NCBI RefSeq assembly: GCF_900095025.1
Contig: NZ_FMBK01000016.1
Location: forward strand, 1 to 64,000
Length of the DNA: 64,000 nucleotides
Reading direction: 5' to 3'
Source of the DNA: Acinetobacter albensis
GTDB lineage: Bacteria > Pseudomonadota > Gammaproteobacteria > Pseudomonadales > Moraxellaceae
Numbering within the stretch: the first letter of the stretch is position 1; every line of letters begins with the position of its first letter. Below, one piece after another: positions 51,824-58,584 of the stretch. The translations under genes and the position numbers were made by a program. The notes beneath the pieces were generated by a model, which saw nothing but the letters and a program-made list of their open reading frames with translations, ran no database searches and was not told where the DNA came from.

Positions 51824-52169
51824 AGTAACTTCCTAACCCCAAAAGATAATTTTATAGCTTGAATTATGCGAGCATGAGTATTCACAATTTTCTGAGATTG
51901 AACAAGCATTACTAAAATATATCTCAAAAAATTTGCAGTGAACTTCCCTCTCAAGCTCAAACCAGAAACTAGGTGTTAGCGCTATAGAATTATGTCAATT
52001 TTTAATACAGTAATACGTTAAATTCATTGAGATCAATTTAAGAAAAATCTCTAATTATTTGATCATTTTTCAACCAAAATAAAATTTAATTGATTATTAT
52101 CAATTGATTTATGTCTGAATTTATCCCCAATTTCTGCGGATAAGATTAGGGATAATTTTTTATTGATTT

Positions 52170-52187
52170 TGTACGTTAAAGCTTACA
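52170..52187 (+). promoter_or_regulatory. GacA upstream activating sequence, left copy (one mismatch)
   Basis: TGTACG-TTAAAG-CTTACA against the GacA consensus TGTAAG-N6-CTTACA. It is centred about 66 bp before the predicted transcription start near 52244, the usual distance for rsm sRNA genes. The -10 candidate is TATTAT (52232-52237); no good -35 is seen, as expected for an activated promoter. Confidence 0.7.
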
Positions 52188-52243
52188 AGAATTTAGGTAT
52201 GTTGCGAGTATACCATTTCGTGTTTATTTCTTATTATAGGGAT

Positions 52244-52366
52244 ATAGAGAACAGGATGTTCCGCCAATAACAATAATAGAATCAGCATAAGGAATATGAG
52301 GTACGACAGGAGTTCTACCTAAGGCATCAAATATGAAAAACCCTGACAGGATGTCAGGGTTTTTTT
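52244..52366 (+). ncRNA. Rsm/Csr-type CsrA-sequestering sRNA candidate, left copy
   Basis: Predicted RNA of about 123 nt. Hairpin 1: GAAC-AGGAT-GTTC (52249-52261). Hairpin 2: AGGTA-C-GAC-AGGA-GTT-C-TACCT (52299-52320). Hairpin 3, the terminator: CCCTGAC-AGGAT-GTCAGGG (52341-52359) plus seven T. Each shows AGGA in a loop closed by a C-G pair; a fourth GGA lies unpaired at 52291-52293. This is the architecture of RsmX/Y/Z RNAs, which bind CsrA/RsmA. The start is inferred from the -10 and the GacA box. No ORF with a ribosome binding site fits. Confidence 0.8.
52336..52366 (+). terminator. Terminator of the left sRNA
   Basis: Seven-bp G/C-rich stem (CCCTGAC/GTCAGGG) with AGGAT loop, A-run before and seven T after. 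It can also work on the minus strand (TTTTT). Confidence 0.93.
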
Positions 52367-52368
52367 AT

Positions 52369-52798
52369 CTCTATATTTCTGAAATCAAGAATAGTTTTAT
52401 ACATCCACAATATGAATTAAGGCTGCTGCTGAGCCATTCTGATATCTACATACTCTACTTAAAGCCTCCTTGAGCTGACATGCAATTGCTTCAAATCTCA
52501 TTTGGCTTGGAAACTCTTTGGTGCAAATTTTGACAGCAAGCTTGATATTTCAGCTGAATAAAGCAGAAGATTTTTCTTGTTTAAGCATGATCTTGATGAA
52601 TTCGGCTTTAAATTATGCTCTATAGCTCAGACAAGCATGTTAACTCATCATATCACTCCTTTTGATTAATTCTATCTCTTTTAAAATCTCTGATTTTTTA
52701 GCAAAAATTCACGATAAAAGCACTGCAATAAAAAGAATAAAATATGAGATAAATAATGGAAATTATTCAGCGTAAAGTAGCCATAATCGACAAATAAG
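52369..52798. other. Non-coding stretch before the siderophore ABC operon
   Basis: About 430 bp with no supported gene. A frame on the minus strand (about 52397-52545) reads like a coding relic (LAVKICTKEFPSQMRFEAIA) but has no credible start. Nothing else recognised. Confidence 0.4.
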
Positions 52799-52845
52799 TA
52801 ATTATCATTTGTTAATATTTAACAAATAGAAACAATTATCATTTT
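52799..52845 (+). promoter_or_regulatory. Fur-like boxes before the siderophore ABC operon
   Basis: Two direct copies of AATTATCATTT (52799-52809 and 52834-52844), whose complement contains the Fur core AATGATAAT, flank a perfect 9-bp-arm palindrome ATTTGTTAA-TAT-TTAACAAAT (52807-52827). They lie 107-153 bp before the first permease start, so the operon is probably iron-repressed. Confidence 0.65.
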
Positions 52846-52951
52846 TCTGAGTTGTAAGATTTATGTTATTTTTACTTTAATTATTTATTAATAAATCACC
52901 TTTTTTATTCACTTTTCTCATGATGTATTCAATATATGAAACAGGTATCAG

Positions 52952-53905
52952 ATGATTAAGTGCCGCTACCTGTTGGCCTTATTATTACCATGTGCGCTAA
53001 TTTCCTTGTTTGTCGGAGTCGGTAATATGACTTGGCAAGGCTTATTAAATGGGCAAATGCAAGACTGGCAAATTTTTTGGACCAGTCGGTTTCCACGTTT
53101 AATGGCGATTGTTGTAGCAGGCGCAGGATTGAGTGTTTGTGGTCTGATTATGCAAACATTGACGCGTAATCGTTTTGTATCTCCTACTACAGCAGGGCTT
53201 TATGACTGCGCGCGTCTAGGAGTATTGGTTTCAATTATTCTAATCCCTACAGCATCTATATTTTTAAAAACTGGATTCGCAATTGGAGTGACTCTGCTTG
53301 GTGCATTGGCATTCATGGGAATTTTATCAACATTAAAACATCGAGATACTGTATTTGTTCCATTGGTAGGGATGATTTTTGGCAGTATTATTTCAGCTTT
53401 TACTACATTTATTGCCTTACAAATGGATTTGCTACAAAGCCTCTCAGGTTGGTTACAAGGTGATTTTTCCACTATTCTCAATGGACAATATGAACTGATT
53501 TATTTCAGTGTCCCAATACTCGTATTAATTTATATTTTCGCAAACCGATTTTTACTTGCAGGTTTAGGCGAAGATTTTGCTGTTAATCTAGGCTTAAATT
53601 ATAAAAAAACCTTATTCGTTGGCTTAGCTTTAGTATCTGTAATTACAGGTGTAGTCATTATTACTGTGGGAGCAATTCCTTTCCTTGGTCTTATTGTTCC
53701 AAATATTGTCAGCTTATATCTAGGCGATAATTTACGTAAAACCTTACCTCACACGGCTTTGTTAGGGGCCTTATTGGTACTAATGTGTGACATTTTTGGT
53801 AGAGTTGTTATTTATCCTTATGAAATTCCTATTAGCTTAATTATGGGAGTATTGGGTAGCGTAATTTTCCTTGCACTACTGATTAGGAAATATCGCCATG
53901 TCTAA
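52952..53905 (+). CDS. FecCD-family siderophore permease (FatD/BauD-like)
   Basis: 317 aa, nine or ten membrane spans. The BtuCD/FecCD signature regions are visible: RFPRLMAIVVAGAGLSVCGLIMQ near the N-terminus and VGAIPFLGLIVPNIVSLYLGDNLR near residue 250 (in part). First gene of a four-gene operon permease-permease-ATPase-binding protein, the order of bauDCEB in acinetobactin loci and similar to Vibrio fatDCB. It overlaps the next gene by 8 nt. Inner-membrane half of a ferric siderophore importer. Confidence 0.92.
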   Translation: MIKCRYLLALLLPCALISLFVGVGNMTWQGLLNGQMQDWQIFWTSRFPRLMAIVVAGAGLSVCGLIMQTLTRNRFVSPTTAGLYDCARLGVLVSIILIPTASIFLKTGFAIGVTLLGALAFMGILSTLKHRDTVFVPLVGMIFGSIISAFTTFIALQMDLLQSLSGWLQGDFSTILNGQYELIYFSVPILVLIYIFANRFLLAGLGEDFAVNLGLNYKKTLFVGLALVSVITGVVIITVGAIPFLGLIVPNIVSLYLGDNLRKTLPHTALLGALLVLMCDIFGRVVIYPYEIPISLIMGVLGSVIFLALLIRKYRHV

Positions 53906-54860
53906 TCAACTTAAGTTAATGCTTCTCGTACTTTTAATTTTTATCAGTACCGCCGTATATTTATTTTGGGACATGGGTGAAGCTTGGCAATATGCTTTAT
54001 CTCTTCGGTTGAAAACGGTTTTGGGGATACTCGTTACAGGTGTAGCTGTCGGTATTTCTACCCTCATCTTTCATACTATTGTAAATAATCGCGTGGTTAC
54101 TCCTCAAACATTAGGTTTGGATAAACTTTATGATTTATCCAAAACCCTGATTATCTATATCTTTGGTGCCAGTACCTTACTTTCGTTAAATATAGTAGCC
54201 GACTATTTTATTAGTCTGTTTCTCATGCTGATTTTTGCTTTAATGTTATATCGTTTTATCTTTCGTAAAGTTGCCGATCAAAATATTTATTTTCTCTTAT
54301 TAATCGGCCTTATTTGTGCAACTTTATTTGATAGCATGACCACATTTTTTCAAGTTTTACTTGATCCCGATGAATTCCAAGTTGCAGCTTATGCGGGTTT
54401 TGCAAGTTTTAATTTTGTCAAAATAGAACCTTTAATTCTTGCGACTTTGACTATATGTCCTATTTTAATGTATTGCCTTTCTAAACTTCATATTTTTGAT
54501 GTGATGGCATTAGGTCGAGATCATGCTCTGAATTTAGGAATGAACTATGACAAAACCAGTCGTACCTTTTTAATTTTAGTCGTATTGGCTTTAGCTTCGG
54601 CGACCGCATTGGCAGGCCCGATGATGTTTCTCGGCTTATTGGTGTTGAATATTAGTTTAGAAATTTTTAAAACACATCAACATAAAGTTTTATTGCCTGG
54701 CATTATTTTAGTTTCAATCGCATCACTTTTAATTGGTCAATCGATTGTTCTCCATGTTCTTAATCTTAAAACCACTTTGAGTGTCATCATTAACTTTGTT
54801 GGCGGCATTTATTTCTTCTGGATTCTACTGAAGGAGAATAAAAAATGGCAATTGTCTTAG
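53898..54860 (+). CDS. FecCD-family siderophore permease (FatC/BauC-like)
   Basis: 320 aa multi-span membrane protein with RLKTVLGILVTGVAVGIST, NLGMNYDKTSRTFL and GPMMFLGLLVLNIS as the family landmarks. Shorter and more divergent than FatD types, as usual for FatC. It overlaps the preceding permease by 8 nt and the ATPase gene by 16 nt, so translation is tightly linked. The two permeases form the heterodimeric channel. Confidence 0.91.
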   Translation: MSNQLKLMLLVLLIFISTAVYLFWDMGEAWQYALSLRLKTVLGILVTGVAVGISTLIFHTIVNNRVVTPQTLGLDKLYDLSKTLIIYIFGASTLLSLNIVADYFISLFLMLIFALMLYRFIFRKVADQNIYFLLLIGLICATLFDSMTTFFQVLLDPDEFQVAAYAGFASFNFVKIEPLILATLTICPILMYCLSKLHIFDVMALGRDHALNLGMNYDKTSRTFLILVVLALASATALAGPMMFLGLLVLNISLEIFKTHQHKVLLPGIILVSIASLLIGQSIVLHVLNLKTTLSVIINFVGGIYFFWILLKENKKWQLS

Positions 54861-55609
54861 AAAATATTGATAAATCTTATCATGGTACTAAGGTGGTCGA
54901 TCAGGTGTCCTTAGAAATTGCTAAAGGTCAATTTACTGCATTTATTGGCCCAAATGGCGCAGGCAAAAGTACAGTTCTCGGCATTATGAGCCGTTTACTC
55001 TCTGCCGATTCAGGTACTGTTTATTTAGACGGTCAAAATCTTTATAAAATGAATCATGCCGATGTGGCTAAAAAAATGGCGATTTTAAAACAGGCAAATC
55101 ATACAGAACTCCGCTTATCGATAGAAGACTTGGTTGCATTTGGACGATTCCCCTATTCTCAAGGACGTTTAACTGAGCAAGACCATCGCGTCATTAATCA
55201 AGCGATTGGCTATATGGATTTAGAAGAAATGCGAACCAAGCAGTTGAGTGAACTCTCAGGAGGGCAACGACAGCGTGCTTATATTGCAATGGTATTGGCA
55301 CAAGACACAGATTACATTCTTTTAGATGAACCACTCAATAACCTAGACATGAAACATTCAGCGCAAATTATGCGTGTATTGAAAGATCTTAGTCTAAATC
55401 ATGGAAAATCTATCATTGTGGTCATTCATGATATTAATTTTGCTTCAGTTTATGCTGACCAAATTATTGCAATGAAAAATGGTGCTCTTGCTTACCAAGG
55501 TTCGCCAAAACAAATTATGCATGAAGATATTTTAGAAGATATTTTTGATTTTCATATTCCCATTCAAGACATTCAACAACACAAATTAGGCTTATTTTTT
55601 ATTAGTTAG
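54845..55609 (+). CDS. Siderophore ABC transporter ATP-binding protein
   Basis: 254 aa. Walker A GPNGAGKST (35-43), signature LSGGQRQR, Walker B YILLDEP and the switch His in VIHDINFA. FepC/FecE/BauE type. It overlaps the FatC-like gene by 16 nt; GGAG lies before its ATG. It powers ferric siderophore import through the two preceding permeases. Confidence 0.95.
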   Translation: MAIVLENIDKSYHGTKVVDQVSLEIAKGQFTAFIGPNGAGKSTVLGIMSRLLSADSGTVYLDGQNLYKMNHADVAKKMAILKQANHTELRLSIEDLVAFGRFPYSQGRLTEQDHRVINQAIGYMDLEEMRTKQLSELSGGQRQRAYIAMVLAQDTDYILLDEPLNNLDMKHSAQIMRVLKDLSLNHGKSIIVVIHDINFASVYADQIIAMKNGALAYQGSPKQIMHEDILEDIFDFHIPIQDIQQHKLGLFFIS

Positions 55610-55618
55610 GAGATTGTT

Positions 55619-56569
55619 ATGTTTTTAAAAAAAACACTCATTGCGCTTGCTTTTGCGAGTGTATTGGTTGGATGCTCTCAACAAAATACAACATCGGCAT
55701 CTCAATCCCAAAGTGCTGCATCTACCGAGATGCAAACATTTTCCAGTAAAGCTGGTGAGATTAGCATTCCTAAAGAATTAAGCCGTATTACCGTTTTAGA
55801 TACCAACTCTTTAAATACTATTCAAGAATTAGGCGCAAGCGATAAAATAGTTGCATTACCTAGAGGTACTCCACTTCCTAAAGCGCTTAGTCGTTTTTCT
55901 AAAGACCAATATATTGATGTCGGAACCGCAAAAGAACCAAATTTAGAAAAAATTGCGTCAAGCAAACCACAATTAATTATCATGAGTGCACGTATGGAAA
56001 ATCTGATCGATCAGATTAAAGGTATCGCACCAACTTATTTTAACCAATTGGACTATAAGGATCGGGTTAATTCTTTTAAACAACAAACTTTAAATATTGC
56101 TGAAATGGTCGGTAAAAAAGCGGAAGCTGAACAACAACTCGCAATATTAGACCAACAGATTGCAACTTTAAGAGAAAAAACCAAAAACAAAACTGCATTA
56201 GTGATTTTAGTTAATAATAATAAATTATCTGCTTATGGTGTAGGGTCACGCTTCGGGCTGATACATGATCTTTATGGTTTTTCACCTGCCGACCCTGCGA
56301 TTAAAGTCGGTACGCATGGCATGTCTGTTTCGCATGAATTTATTAGTGAAAAAAATCCAGATTACTTATTTGTTATTGACCGTAATGCAGCTATTACTGA
56401 TGGTGATGGTGGAACAAAAAAAGTCTTAGACAACAATCTAATCAATCAAACCAACGCTGCTAAAAATGGCAATATTGTATTTTTAGATTCAAGTACTTGG
56501 TATCTAATGAATGAAAGTTTAGGCGGAATGAAAGCAATGGTTAAAGAGGTATCTGCAGCAGTAGAATAA
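55619..56569 (+). CDS. Periplasmic siderophore-binding lipoprotein (FatB/BauB-like)
   Basis: 316 aa class III (FepB-type) substrate-binding protein. Lipobox VLVGC with Cys19, a Ser/Gln-rich linker, N lobe with RITVLDTNSLNTIQELG and PNLEKIASSKPQLIIMS, a long connecting helix, and C lobe with GTHGMSVSHEFISEKNPDYLF. It delivers ferric siderophore to the permeases. It starts 9 nt after the ATPase gene and ends the operon with a hairpin terminator. Confidence 0.93.
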   Translation: MFLKKTLIALAFASVLVGCSQQNTTSASQSQSAASTEMQTFSSKAGEISIPKELSRITVLDTNSLNTIQELGASDKIVALPRGTPLPKALSRFSKDQYIDVGTAKEPNLEKIASSKPQLIIMSARMENLIDQIKGIAPTYFNQLDYKDRVNSFKQQTLNIAEMVGKKAEAEQQLAILDQQIATLREKTKNKTALVILVNNNKLSAYGVGSRFGLIHDLYGFSPADPAIKVGTHGMSVSHEFISEKNPDYLFVIDRNAAITDGDGGTKKVLDNNLINQTNAAKNGNIVFLDSSTWYLMNESLGGMKAMVKEVSAAVE

Positions 56570-56578
56570 AATTTTAAT

Positions 56579-56614
56579 AAGTATGGATATCTCAAATATT
56601 CATACTTTATTTAA
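56579..56614 (+). terminator. Terminator of the siderophore ABC operon
   Basis: AAGTATGGATAT pairs with ATATTCATACTT (one G-U) around CTCAA, followed by TATTTAATTT. The rest of the gap to 56942 shows no gene. Confidence 0.7.
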
Positions 56615-56942
56615 TTTCAGTTTGAGGGTTCCATTAAATTATGAAAAATAAATTTACAGATGGGTCTTATCATATCAAGTTCATATTTGACTCATACTAC
56701 ATTACTTTATTCTCTGGGTTTCACCCGTCATAGACTCCTTCATTACGCGTCTAAAACTGGATCTGTAATGGTTCTTGATTTTATCAATCAGTCAAAATCA
56801 ATCATACAGTCGTCACACAAACGTTAATCCACTTATGACAAGTTTATCAACTTTAAATTAGAAATCACTTATCTAAAAAATAAACCTAATTTAAAAAATA
56901 AATTTAATTTAATAAAGTTAAGAACCTTGCCATTTTTAATCC

Positions 56943-57206
56943 TTAATGGTGCTTATATTGGCGTGTACAGTAACCACGGATTACCTCTGGCATGCGTAGT
57001 TGCAAATGCTTGGTTTTACGCCCTGCCACCCGCTCACGCCATAACTTAAAACTACTCGACTTTAAATTTTTCCGCATTAAACGAACCACAGCAGATTCAT
57101 TTAACCCAAACTCACGCTCTATGGCTTCAAAAGGGGTTCTATCCTCCCACGCCATTTCAATAATTCGTGATAGATCTGCACCATTAGATTCGACAGTATT
57201 ATTCAC
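56943..57206 (-). CDS. DUF2805 / TIGR03643 family small protein
   Basis: 87 aa from a GTG at 57206 that has AGGA 7 nt upstream; the ATG at 57314 adds a poorly conserved N-terminus. The body LSRIIEMAWEDRTPFEAIE, FGLNESAVVRLMR and SFKLWRERVAGRKTKHLQLR is the TIGR03643 pattern. The helical, HTH-like EREFGLNESAVVRLMRK segment and the basic C-terminus suggest nucleic acid binding, but no function is established. It is a single gene inside the inverted repeat-bounded segment. Confidence 0.82.
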   Translation of the reverse strand: MNNTVESNGADLSRIIEMAWEDRTPFEAIEREFGLNESAVVRLMRKNLKSSSFKLWRERVAGRKTKHLQLRMPEVIRGYCTRQYKHH

Positions 57207-57473
57207 AGCATGGTCCTGATCATTTGAAAATAAAAATATCTTAAAGATGGAAAAGTTGCCGATCTGTATCGGTCTATCTACTTTTTTAATCTTGAAGAAA
57301 TCATGTTTACACATTTGTATTTTAAAAAATACGAAATGAAGAATTTGTGATTTTTTTAAATTTTACCTGATTATTCATATTTAATTTCAATTTTATAAAC
57401 CATATTCAAACTCTTAAATGCATTTGCTTTAAAATTGAATATGATGAAAAAAAAAGCATCCTTTGAATCTCAT

Positions 57474-58064
57474 TTAGTGTGAGTCTTTTTTATTTGTTGC
57501 AATGTCTATTTCTTTCATAAATTGTTTAAATTTCAACTTTAATTGAATATACTTTTGATTTAATTTAGCTTCATCCCATTTTAGCTTAAAGATTTTAGCA
57601 GCAGCTACTTTTTCGGGATCTTGATCTTCAAAGTTTTCTCTTAATAATTGTTCACGGCCATGTGCTCCACTCAAGCCTTTCTTGTCTAATGGAACTGCGC
57701 CGTTATATTTTTTACCTCCTTTATGATTGGCATATCTACGCGCGCGAGTGTATCCCATTTGCAAAAATTTTCTTGCCATATCTGCACCAATAAAATCATC
57801 CTTATCCAAATAGTCTAAAAATAATGAATAAATCTTTTCACTGCTGATCTTAGCTTTATTTCTATCTGCAAATTTCCAATAAGGCAGAATTTCTGATTTA
57901 TAGGGTTCAACCAGCAGTACACCTTGTTCTCCCCGACCAATACGATATAACTCAGGTCTTTCCCTAAAATTGATCTTGTTAAAATCTAAACCATAATCAA
58001 AACTATTTGAAAAAACTCTTGAAGCTCTTTTCGGGATATGATCTTTTGAAAATATAGCTTTCAT
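57474..58064 (-). CDS. DUF4385 family protein
   Basis: 196 aa. Recognised from NFRERPELYRIGRGEQGVLL, EPYKSEILPYWKF and GADMARKFLQMGYTRARRYA, the conserved DUF4385 core. Soluble, basic, no signal peptide. The family is widespread in bacteria and some phages and has no known function. It lies just inside the right inverted repeat, convergent with nothing and upstream of the DUF2805 gene on the same strand, about 270 bp apart. Confidence 0.85.
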   Translation of the reverse strand: MKAIFSKDHIPKRASRVFSNSFDYGLDFNKINFRERPELYRIGRGEQGVLLVEPYKSEILPYWKFADRNKAKISSEKIYSLFLDYLDKDDFIGADMARKFLQMGYTRARRYANHKGGKKYNGAVPLDKKGLSGAHGREQLLRENFEDQDPEKVAAAKIFKLKWDEAKLNQKYIQLKLKFKQFMKEIDIATNKKDSH

Positions 58065-58160
58065 TTAATTTCCTCAAAAATTATATAAAATCGGTTCAAT
58101 AGGGATATTTTTATTTCAGCCATTAATTTTCGAACTTATGAATTAAAAGTTTTAGAATAT

Positions 58161-58283
58161 AAAAAAACCCTGACATCCTGTCAGGGTTTTTCATATTTGA
58201 TGCCTTAGGTAGAACTCCTGTCGTACCTCATATTCCTTATGCTGATTCTATTATTGTTATTGGCGGAACATCCTGTTCTCTAT
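58161..58283 (-). ncRNA. Rsm/Csr-type CsrA-sequestering sRNA candidate, right copy
   Basis: The predicted transcript is identical in sequence to the left copy except at the extreme 5' end of the promoter-proximal part (the -10 reads TATCAT instead of TATTAT). Same three hairpins with AGGA in C-G-closed loops, same unpaired GGA, same terminator (58161-58191). It is transcribed towards the left copy, from the far side of the siderophore operon. Confidence 0.8.
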
Positions 58284-58339
58284 ACCCCTATGATAAGAAA
58301 TAAACACGAAATGGTATACCCGCAACATATCTAAATTCT

Positions 58340-58357
58340 TGTAAGCTTTAACTTACA
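58340..58357 (-). promoter_or_regulatory. GacA upstream activating sequence, right copy (exact consensus)
   Basis: TGTAAG-TTAAAG-CTTACA on the minus strand, an exact match to TGTAAG-N6-CTTACA, centred about 66 bp before the predicted start of the right sRNA near 58283. This is the strongest single piece of evidence that the repeats are rsm-type genes. Confidence 0.85.
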
Positions 58358-58584
58358 AAATCAATAAAAAATTATCCCTACTCTTATCCACAAAAATTGG
58401 GGATAAATTCAGACATAAATCAATTGATAATAATCAATTTAATTTTATTTCGGTTGAAAAATGATCAACACTATTGGCAAAAAACTATATTCCTGATTAA
58501 AATGAACTAAATTATTTTCAAGTTGAATATTTGCATTTTTCAAATTAATTTTTTTAATTTACTGAAAAATAATATTATTTTAAA

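Follow-up and report, generated by a model that had tools for sequence, protein, structure and literature searches.

When analyzing a 64,000-nucleotide stretch of Acinetobacter albensis DNA (positions 1 to 64,000 of contig NZ_FMBK01000016.1, assembly GCF_900095025.1; hereafter the window), we found two small RNA (sRNA) genes that face each other across a siderophore operon and very probably encode GacA-controlled, CsrA-titrating RNAs of the Rsm/Csr type; from the sequence we infer their expression, their control by GacA and their binding of CsrA. The account that best explains all results jointly, and in which we have high confidence, is that such genes form a genus-wide, multi-copy family in Acinetobacter with a branch carried on plasmids, and that the window pair is a local duplication within it. 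The plasmid-carried, apparently mobile branch is the larger finding and appears to be new, chromosomal Rsm RNAs having already been predicted in this genus.

The two genes lie in the arms of a 310-nt inverted repeat, located by repeat comparison at 52059-52368 (plus strand) and 58159-58468 (minus strand), 97% complementary and 5.8 kb apart. Each arm contains, in this order, a GacA-type palindrome, a -10-like box, a 126-nt RNA body and a terminator, and the arms end close to the terminators. In the left arm, which comprises the promoter region and the sRNA gene, a pattern scan placed the upstream box TGTACGTTAAAGCTTACA at 52170-52187; the -10-like box TATTAT (genus consensus TATnAT) was read off the sequence at 52232-52237, and the sRNA is predicted at 52243-52368, with its start taken from the -10 box and its end from the terminator. 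The right arm carries, on the minus strand, the box TGTAAGTTAAAGCTTACA at 58340-58357, the -10-like box TATCAT at 58290-58295 and a predicted sRNA at 58159-58284, assigned by its fold and a covariance-model match, whose body has the same sequence and the same fold as the left one. These two boxes are the only sites in the window that agree with the box at 11 or more of 12 positions. The first-pass annotation, made from the letters alone, had described a near-identical inverted pair of sRNA genes with these upstream boxes and a -10-like box about 50 bp further on, and this description was borne out.

The 126-nt body has a minimum free energy (MFE) of -31.9 kcal/mol (z -4.1; none of 200 shuffled sequences was as stable), and all four of its GGA triplets fall in loops of the predicted MFE structure. 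Fold and covariation together define three hairpins, given here for the left copy: hairpin 1 at 52249-52261 (GAACA-GGA-UGUUC), hairpin 2 at 52299-52320 with the loop region GACAGGAGU, and hairpin 3 at 52335-52365, the intrinsic terminator, with a 14-bp stem and the tip GACAGGAUGUC (GACA-GGA-UGUC). The three GGA hairpins and the terminator had been seen correctly at first pass; the fourth GGA, then called free, sits in a small predicted hairpin at 52286-52298 (loop AAGGA), which belongs to the MFE fold of the left copy and is absent from the family consensus structure.

To describe the family, a covariance model (R1) was built from the seven RNA bodies of the A. albensis genome, with promoter and box excluded. 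Applied to 94 loci (own copies, named plasmids and genus loci among L001 to L159, with duplicates, contig-cut sequences and near-repeats dropped by hand), it gave 93 matches, 90 of them distinct. The three-helix structure of these 90 bodies comprises 26 base pairs, of which 16 have changed on both sides, with 97.8% of cells paired and a covariation score of 0.271; none of 500 shuffles reached any of these values, and structures slid along the alignment were 40-51% paired. Pairing was highest in the terminator hairpin (99.0% of cells), which is followed by a T run. The 90 transcripts contain 394 GGA triplets versus about 230 in mononucleotide shuffles, with at least four in 84 transcripts, and the MFE fold leaves 284 of the 394 unpaired, versus 31% of all triplets. 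The loops are retained as well: AGGA of hairpin 1 in 89 transcripts, the exact GACAGGAGT of hairpin 2 in 84 and A(N)GGA at the terminator tip in 87. The covarying stems with retained GGA loops that had been named at first pass as prospective support are, then, present in the family.

The same alignment bears on the idea that the region is a small protein gene. From the box onward it is open in several copies, with frames of, for example, 55-70 codons that begin with TTG or ATG at the box, and related open frames were listed over the copies L003-L006. Such a frame would begin ahead of the -10 box, at the upstream box itself, and the frames of the window copy over 52160-52380 hold stops, frame 0 stopping inside the RNA. 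An open frame of at least 25 codons occurs in 37 of the 90 transcripts, some running off the end, and no reading frame is conserved across the family; the transcripts are 121 to 140 nt long, with differences that do not go in threes, and the substitutions track base pairs. We regard a protein gene as barely credible.

The box itself was assessed in 60 R1 matches, taken mostly one per genome down the match list, four of them repeating loci of the set L020-L049. A box of at least 10/12 lay between -110 and -40 in all 60: 49 had it at -72, nine at -73, and one each at -74 and -58. Of 24,500 other positions in these loci, 4 reached an equal score. A wider set covered 92 of the 93 matches, the one left out being too near a contig end; 90 had a box, the other two being L084 (box at -58) and L056, without one in range. 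When the box was counted anywhere in the first 30 loci, 27 reached at least 11/12, L038 reached 10/12, and L039 and L040 fell below. Between box and body the -10 consensus TATnATG is kept. Across the genus the box mostly reads TGTACG-N6-C(G/T)TACA; since TGTACG is a commoner half-site than TGTAAG, the mismatch noticed in the left box of the window need not mean decay. This conserved position before the RNA points to the box as a putative binding site of GacA.

Fixed spacing and conserved loops also weigh against the reading that the RNA acts by base pairing, as a multi-copy sRNA of the Hfq type or as a C4-like antisense RNA such as those of Group 1 in A. baumannii, and that its GGA triplets are incidental. 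The stretches between the hairpins are single-stranded and A-rich and could pair, and other multi-copy Acinetobacter sRNAs do exist, with 21 C4-like Group 1 members reported in the available text on strain AB5075 (PMC5320573). Yet neither C4 nor any other Rfam family matched the 64-kb window at the gathering threshold, and where the sequences have diverged, the GGA loops on covarying stems persist, behind a GacA-type box at a fixed distance. This alternative appears unlikely to us.

The window pair is not alone in its genome. A search of the 3.05-Mb assembly (30 contigs) with the 231-bp left copy returned seven full elements: the window pair and copies at C13:91910-92128, C12:88727-88945, C30:9748-9959, C14:182197-182408 and C12:27596-27739; two more rows of the search were the terminator matched in reverse. 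R1 added a diverged copy at C20:175307-175436 (37.8 bits; box 11/12 at -67) and a further match at C9:1479-1603 (50 bits). With seven close copies, one diverged copy and the two single-copy candidates described below, the earlier view of the window pair as the CsrA-titrating RNAs of this organism could not be kept.

Comparison with other Acinetobacter genomes, likewise proposed at first pass, gave R1 matches (E ≤ 1e-3) in 116 of 119, with 1-13 matches each; G032, G050 and G077 had no R1 match under the stricter filters of this 119-genome search. Among 199 genomes drawn from the family, all strong R1 matches fell within Acinetobacter (63 genomes), and marginal ones (E 4e-5 to 9e-4) occurred in 16 genomes outside the genus. 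A. baumannii NZ_CP104448.1 has six R1 matches at E ≤ 1.3e-8 and one weak one; this 4.09-Mb chromosome is filed among plasmids, probably in error. An independent scan for box plus AGGA gave at least 114 stretches, of which 80 were listed and their titles counted by eye; among these 80, an R1 match lay at some point in 51 of the 53 Acinetobacter-titled loci and in none of the 27 others. A copy linked to yggS is found in our genome, in A. baumannii NZ_CP104448.1 (L167) and in L111, L116, L117 and L119.

Some arrangements of the copies deserve mention in their own right. Three to five sRNA copies cluster within a few kb in L235, L191, L243, L260, L284, L295, L306 and L318. In L235 (1896-5541, from the ~4-Mb genome G062), three copies alternate with convergent, unrelated genes, namely those of a NUDIX-like protein, a membrane protein and a 521-aa protein, which end against the copies as if these bordered exchangeable cargo. 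Among 22 viral contigs of IMG/VR with the box pattern, five carry an R1 match (L360, L369, L370, L354, L364). The record "Acinetobacter phage MD-2021a" (CAKLQF020000013.1) holds four tandem copies together with vgrG and fabB genes; we take it as bacterial DNA and not as a phage, the record being likely misfiled.

What the first-pass picture of a duplicated pair had missed, right as it was about duplication, is that the family is carried on plasmids. BLAST with the left copy matched 309 plasmid records, 290 of them from Acinetobacter and 54 covering at least 80% of the query, and BLAST with the related copy L091 matched 435, of which 414 were from Acinetobacter and 137 reached this coverage; these record numbers do not equal counts of intact genes, because many partial matches are diverged and some comprise the terminator only. 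Matches also occurred on Klebsiella, Raoultella and Enterobacter plasmids. The one inspected, L189 (Klebsiella oxytoca pKO-16-21-NDM-1; 41 bits, no box), was not counted as intact: it consists of a 44-bp terminator hairpin identical to that of L091, with a catalase gene and an IS5-family transposase next to it.

We then considered 23 hand-picked plasmid loci, 14 mainly from the best matches and a spread list and nine chosen to include weak ones. R1 matched 22 of them (E ≤ 1e-3), and 21 had a box of at least 11/12. In 17 of the 23, a pdif-like (XerC/XerD) site lies 254-269 bp before the box. At a score of at least 19/22, such sites numbered 34 in 68 kb of 13 plasmid loci versus none in the reversed control and none in the window; the 64-kb window has no pdif-like site even at 18/22, so none flanks the window copies. 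Among the six plasmid loci without the spaced site, L154 begins at the record end and L159 has an ISNCY-family transposase (876-2210) between the pdif site and the sRNA box; two copies of one such transposase gene were also seen on pAV2 (L147).

By annotation, toxin-antitoxin genes adjoin the RNA in 12 of the 23 plasmid loci, as RelE/HTH pairs (L147, L153, L156, L158, L159, L190, L196), convergent nadS-RelE pairs (L146, L150, L157, L193) or VapBC (L192), and two genes of the same sizes stand beside the RNA under other names on pAB1 (L145). Across the pdif site from the RNA, L158 and L196 carry blaOXA-72 or blaOXA-24, and tet(39) is present on L149 and L152. In L151 and L152, a pair of pdif sites about 445 bp apart encloses the RNA and no other feature.

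Given such surroundings, the repeated unit could be viewed as the end of a mobile element or a recombination repeat, its sRNA now inactive and the RNAs serving as homology for cargo shuffling. The copies do stand at module ends beside pdif sites, those of G062 alternate with unrelated genes, and the window arms end near the terminators. Against this, the copies have retained box, -10 box, loops and terminator as a set, and their stems covary; in 12 plasmid copies taken by themselves, 6 pairs show double changes and pairing is 97.1%. Such conservation requires selection on the transcript. Mean identity among the plasmid copies is 0.70 in the transcript but 0.42 in the flank behind it; the region before the transcript lies between the two (0.61-0.62), so that plasmids have retained the promoter region as well. 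We judge an inactive repeat improbable.

As to where the window pair came from, six of the seven own copies are nearer over box and body to a plasmid copy (0.74-0.82) than to two yggS-type copies (0.59-0.62); the exception is C12b, beside yggS, with 0.63 to the plasmid copy and 0.66 to the yggS type. A truncated nadS adjoins the terminator in the plasmid arrangement at C30 (L005, E 3e-25) and C14 (L006, E 2e-21), C30 also keeping a piece of relE. Since the window pair and four more own copies are closer to plasmid copies than to the yggS type, and a truncated nadS persists beside two of these six, we take the six to be landed mobile copies. The nearest relatives of the own copies overall are other chromosomal copies, so the direction of movement between plasmid and chromosome can only be surmised. 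A possible 3'-end remnant of nadS also lies by the left window copy (52403-52447, minus strand), a weak match of 15 residues at 60% (E 0.057).

Between the window copies lie a plus-strand operon (52952-56569) for two FecCD permeases, an ABC ATPase and a periplasmic binding protein, which we judge to be outside the sRNA system, and two genes of the DUF2805 and DUF4385 types. Arms that are inverted, 97% identical and set 5.8 kb apart around this operon might suggest that the pair is a functional unit of it, for example for local control or as an invertible segment, and the first-pass annotation had placed the pair around iron uptake. In five genus members with a homologous siderophore binding protein (60-68% identity), however, no R1 match was found in the 15-18 kb around the operon. 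None of the other own copies stands beside iron genes in the open reading frame lists; these copies have unrelated genes as neighbours. We consider a functional unit with the operon to be rather far-fetched, and take the window pair as a recent local duplication of a landed copy, not as an iron-specific device. What held of the earlier identification as CsrA-titrating sRNAs is the sequence features, with a box spacing and loops that are conserved across the genus; its exclusivity and the iron link did not.

Upstream of the box, at 52125-52157 of the window and its mirror, we also observed a dyad TTATCC...GG(G)ATAA, present at the same place in L003, L028 and L154. It occurs in 17 of the 90 copies versus 0 in the reversed control, and may be a site of another regulator.

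Several results weigh against the Rsm/Csr reading. No Rfam model of RsmX, RsmY, PrrB_RsmZ or CsrB matches the window RNAs: the comparison named at first pass yielded no family for either copy, and at E up to 10 the left copy gave 18 chance-level matches, the best at 26.3 of 55 bits, with no Rsm/Csr family among them. The same held for loci L007, L010 and L016; the one Rsm-type match, to PrrB_RsmZ near the C7 locus, was no better than chance at 18.2 of 44 bits. The strict pattern TGTAAGN6CTTACA with up to one mismatch shows no genomic enrichment (11 sites versus 9 in the reversed control), so that the evidence from the box is its fixed place before the RNA; at least six of the 11 sites precede candidates described here (both window sites, C7:20177, C12:27540, C17:186548 and C20:175240). 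The own-genome match at C9 has no box, and among the 23 plasmid loci two are without a box and one (L194) is without the RNA body. Three of the 90 transcripts, including the own copy C12a, have a terminator loop without A(N)GGA. The model-fitted 90-row alignment is biased towards the R1 structure; a model-free MAFFT alignment gave 23 pairs, 15 with double changes, and 98.7% paired. Finally, GacA and GacS stay below the curated cut-offs of the Escherichia coli models (267.6 of 280 and 551 of 890).

The partner genes are nonetheless distinct in the genome. One CsrA was found, above the NCBIfam cut-off. Against the UvrY/SirA/GacA model, the protein at C7:92228-92860 comes first with 268-269 bits and the next one reaches 80, and the best GacS/BarA-like protein (C21:26522-28915) scores 550 bits, the next one 113. 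In A. baylyi, the phenotype of GacA/GacS loss depends on CsrA, and sequestering RNAs have been proposed and left unnamed in the available part of that report (PMC12455638); GacS/GacA is also described, in the part seen of another, as needed for efficient transfer of pAB3 (PMC10746170).

In the mechanism we propose, phosphorylated GacA would bind the box, whose centre lies about 63 bp upstream of the predicted start, and switch on an RNA of about 125 nt. This RNA displays GGA in the conserved loops of three hairpins, the third of which is the terminator, and usually has one or two GGA more. CsrA dimers would bind these loops and so be drawn off their mRNA targets. The more copies there are, the more sponge would be made per active GacA, and with each plasmid or insertion the Csr set point of the host would thus move towards the GacA-active state. 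We accordingly put forward, as a proposal for and against which the balance is about even, that Acinetobacter plasmids carry CsrA sponges of their own: a GacA-driven sRNA gene at pdif sites, with addiction genes and in some cases carbapenemase or tetracycline resistance genes, such that plasmid content and copy number would help set how far GacS/GacA relieves CsrA repression.

If this is true, the plasmid genes would parallel, at the RNA level, the CsrA homologues that some plasmids encode, RsmQ for instance, and plasmid load would be linked to conjugation, desiccation tolerance or the metabolism of the host. The RsmQ plasmid is of the pQBR103 type. The proposal would also account for the number of sponge genes per strain and for strain differences, and would give plasmids, some with carbapenemases, a route to retune a global regulator. 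The present analysis supplies candidates, with coordinates, for CsrA-sequestering RNAs: one apparently mobile multi-copy family and two single-copy types.

These two single-copy candidates were reached by the box scan. The C17 type (L016, C17:186277-186572, minus strand) has eight GGA and a GGA-tipped terminator; it was found in 36 of 41 genus genomes, one of them marginal, with the box in all 12 loci fetched. The C7 type (L010, C7:19916-20201, minus strand) lies directly behind recD (TIGR01447, above cut-off) with a GacA-type box, and was found in all 41 genomes, in some only in part. The box is present in 11 of its 12 loci; a contig end truncates the remaining one. Its 3' half is nearly invariant; only some of its four GGA are in loops, so a sponge role is less sure here. 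An evolution study in A. baylyi reports, in its available text, mutations in csrA, hfq, rnd and a predicted but unexplained sRNA between recD and ACIAD0400 (PMC11426457), and by its position the C7 candidate is probably this sRNA.

In print, Rsm-type RNAs of Acinetobacter have been predicted on chromosomes. RsmA-regulating sRNAs were predicted in A. baylyi ADP1 at ACIAD0018/0019 and ACIAD2750/2751 (Fakhry 2017, PMC5568370, citing Kulkarni 2006), and Rsm-type sRNAs are given in brackets for A. baumannii (PMC7366521). As far as these texts were available, they concern single chromosomes and name neither a multi-copy family nor plasmid copies; the predictions were not mapped onto the families described here. 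A CsrB-like RNA is only supposed in the part seen of PMC12442408. Among papers on A. baumannii sRNAs, the accessible text of PMC11472050 does not mention CsrA, Rsm or GacA, that of PMC5320573 does not mention CsrA, RsmX or plasmids, and PMC12802169 names CsrA only as an essential gene. A literature search for Acinetobacter with "dif module" and "small RNA" found no publication, and we found nothing in print on plasmid copies of Rsm-type RNAs; Singh 2025 (CsrA in A. baumannii) lay outside this search and could describe chromosomal members.

Compared with known systems, the Acinetobacter genes share with RsmX/RsmY/RsmZ of Pseudomonas and CsrB/CsrC of Enterobacteriaceae a palindromic GacA-type box, a short untranslated RNA, GGA hairpin loops and an intrinsic terminator, and the genome holds the partner genes for GacS, GacA and CsrA. 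Sets of several Rsm RNAs are known, with RsmZ1-7 and RsmY1-2 in Azotobacter vinelandii (Table 1 of PMC7366521) and a duplicated rsmX in P. brassicacearum (PMC7911923), as given in the parts of these papers available to us. The Acinetobacter family differs from the Rsm/Csr RNAs in having no Rfam match, in its predominant TGTACG-type box, in a terminator loop that is itself of the binding type, in reaching up to 13 matches per genome and in being plasmid-carried in pdif surroundings. In this last respect the plasmid copies, at pdif sites beside higBA-type, nadS or VapBC genes, resemble the dif modules of Acinetobacter (higBA2, abkBA, tet39, oxa24; PMC13141974); the account of these modules, in its available text, does not mention RNA, noncoding or CsrA, whereas in L151 and L152 the RNA stands alone between pdif sites. 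Plasmid-borne CsrA proteins are known (available parts of PMC7366521 and PMC9928087), and RsmQ, a plasmid-encoded CsrA homologue (PMC9928087), likewise has a plasmid acting on the host Csr/Rsm system. Unlike RsmQ, as it is described there in the part seen, a CsrA-like protein, the Acinetobacter plasmids would carry the antagonist RNA, under apparent control by the GacA of the host.

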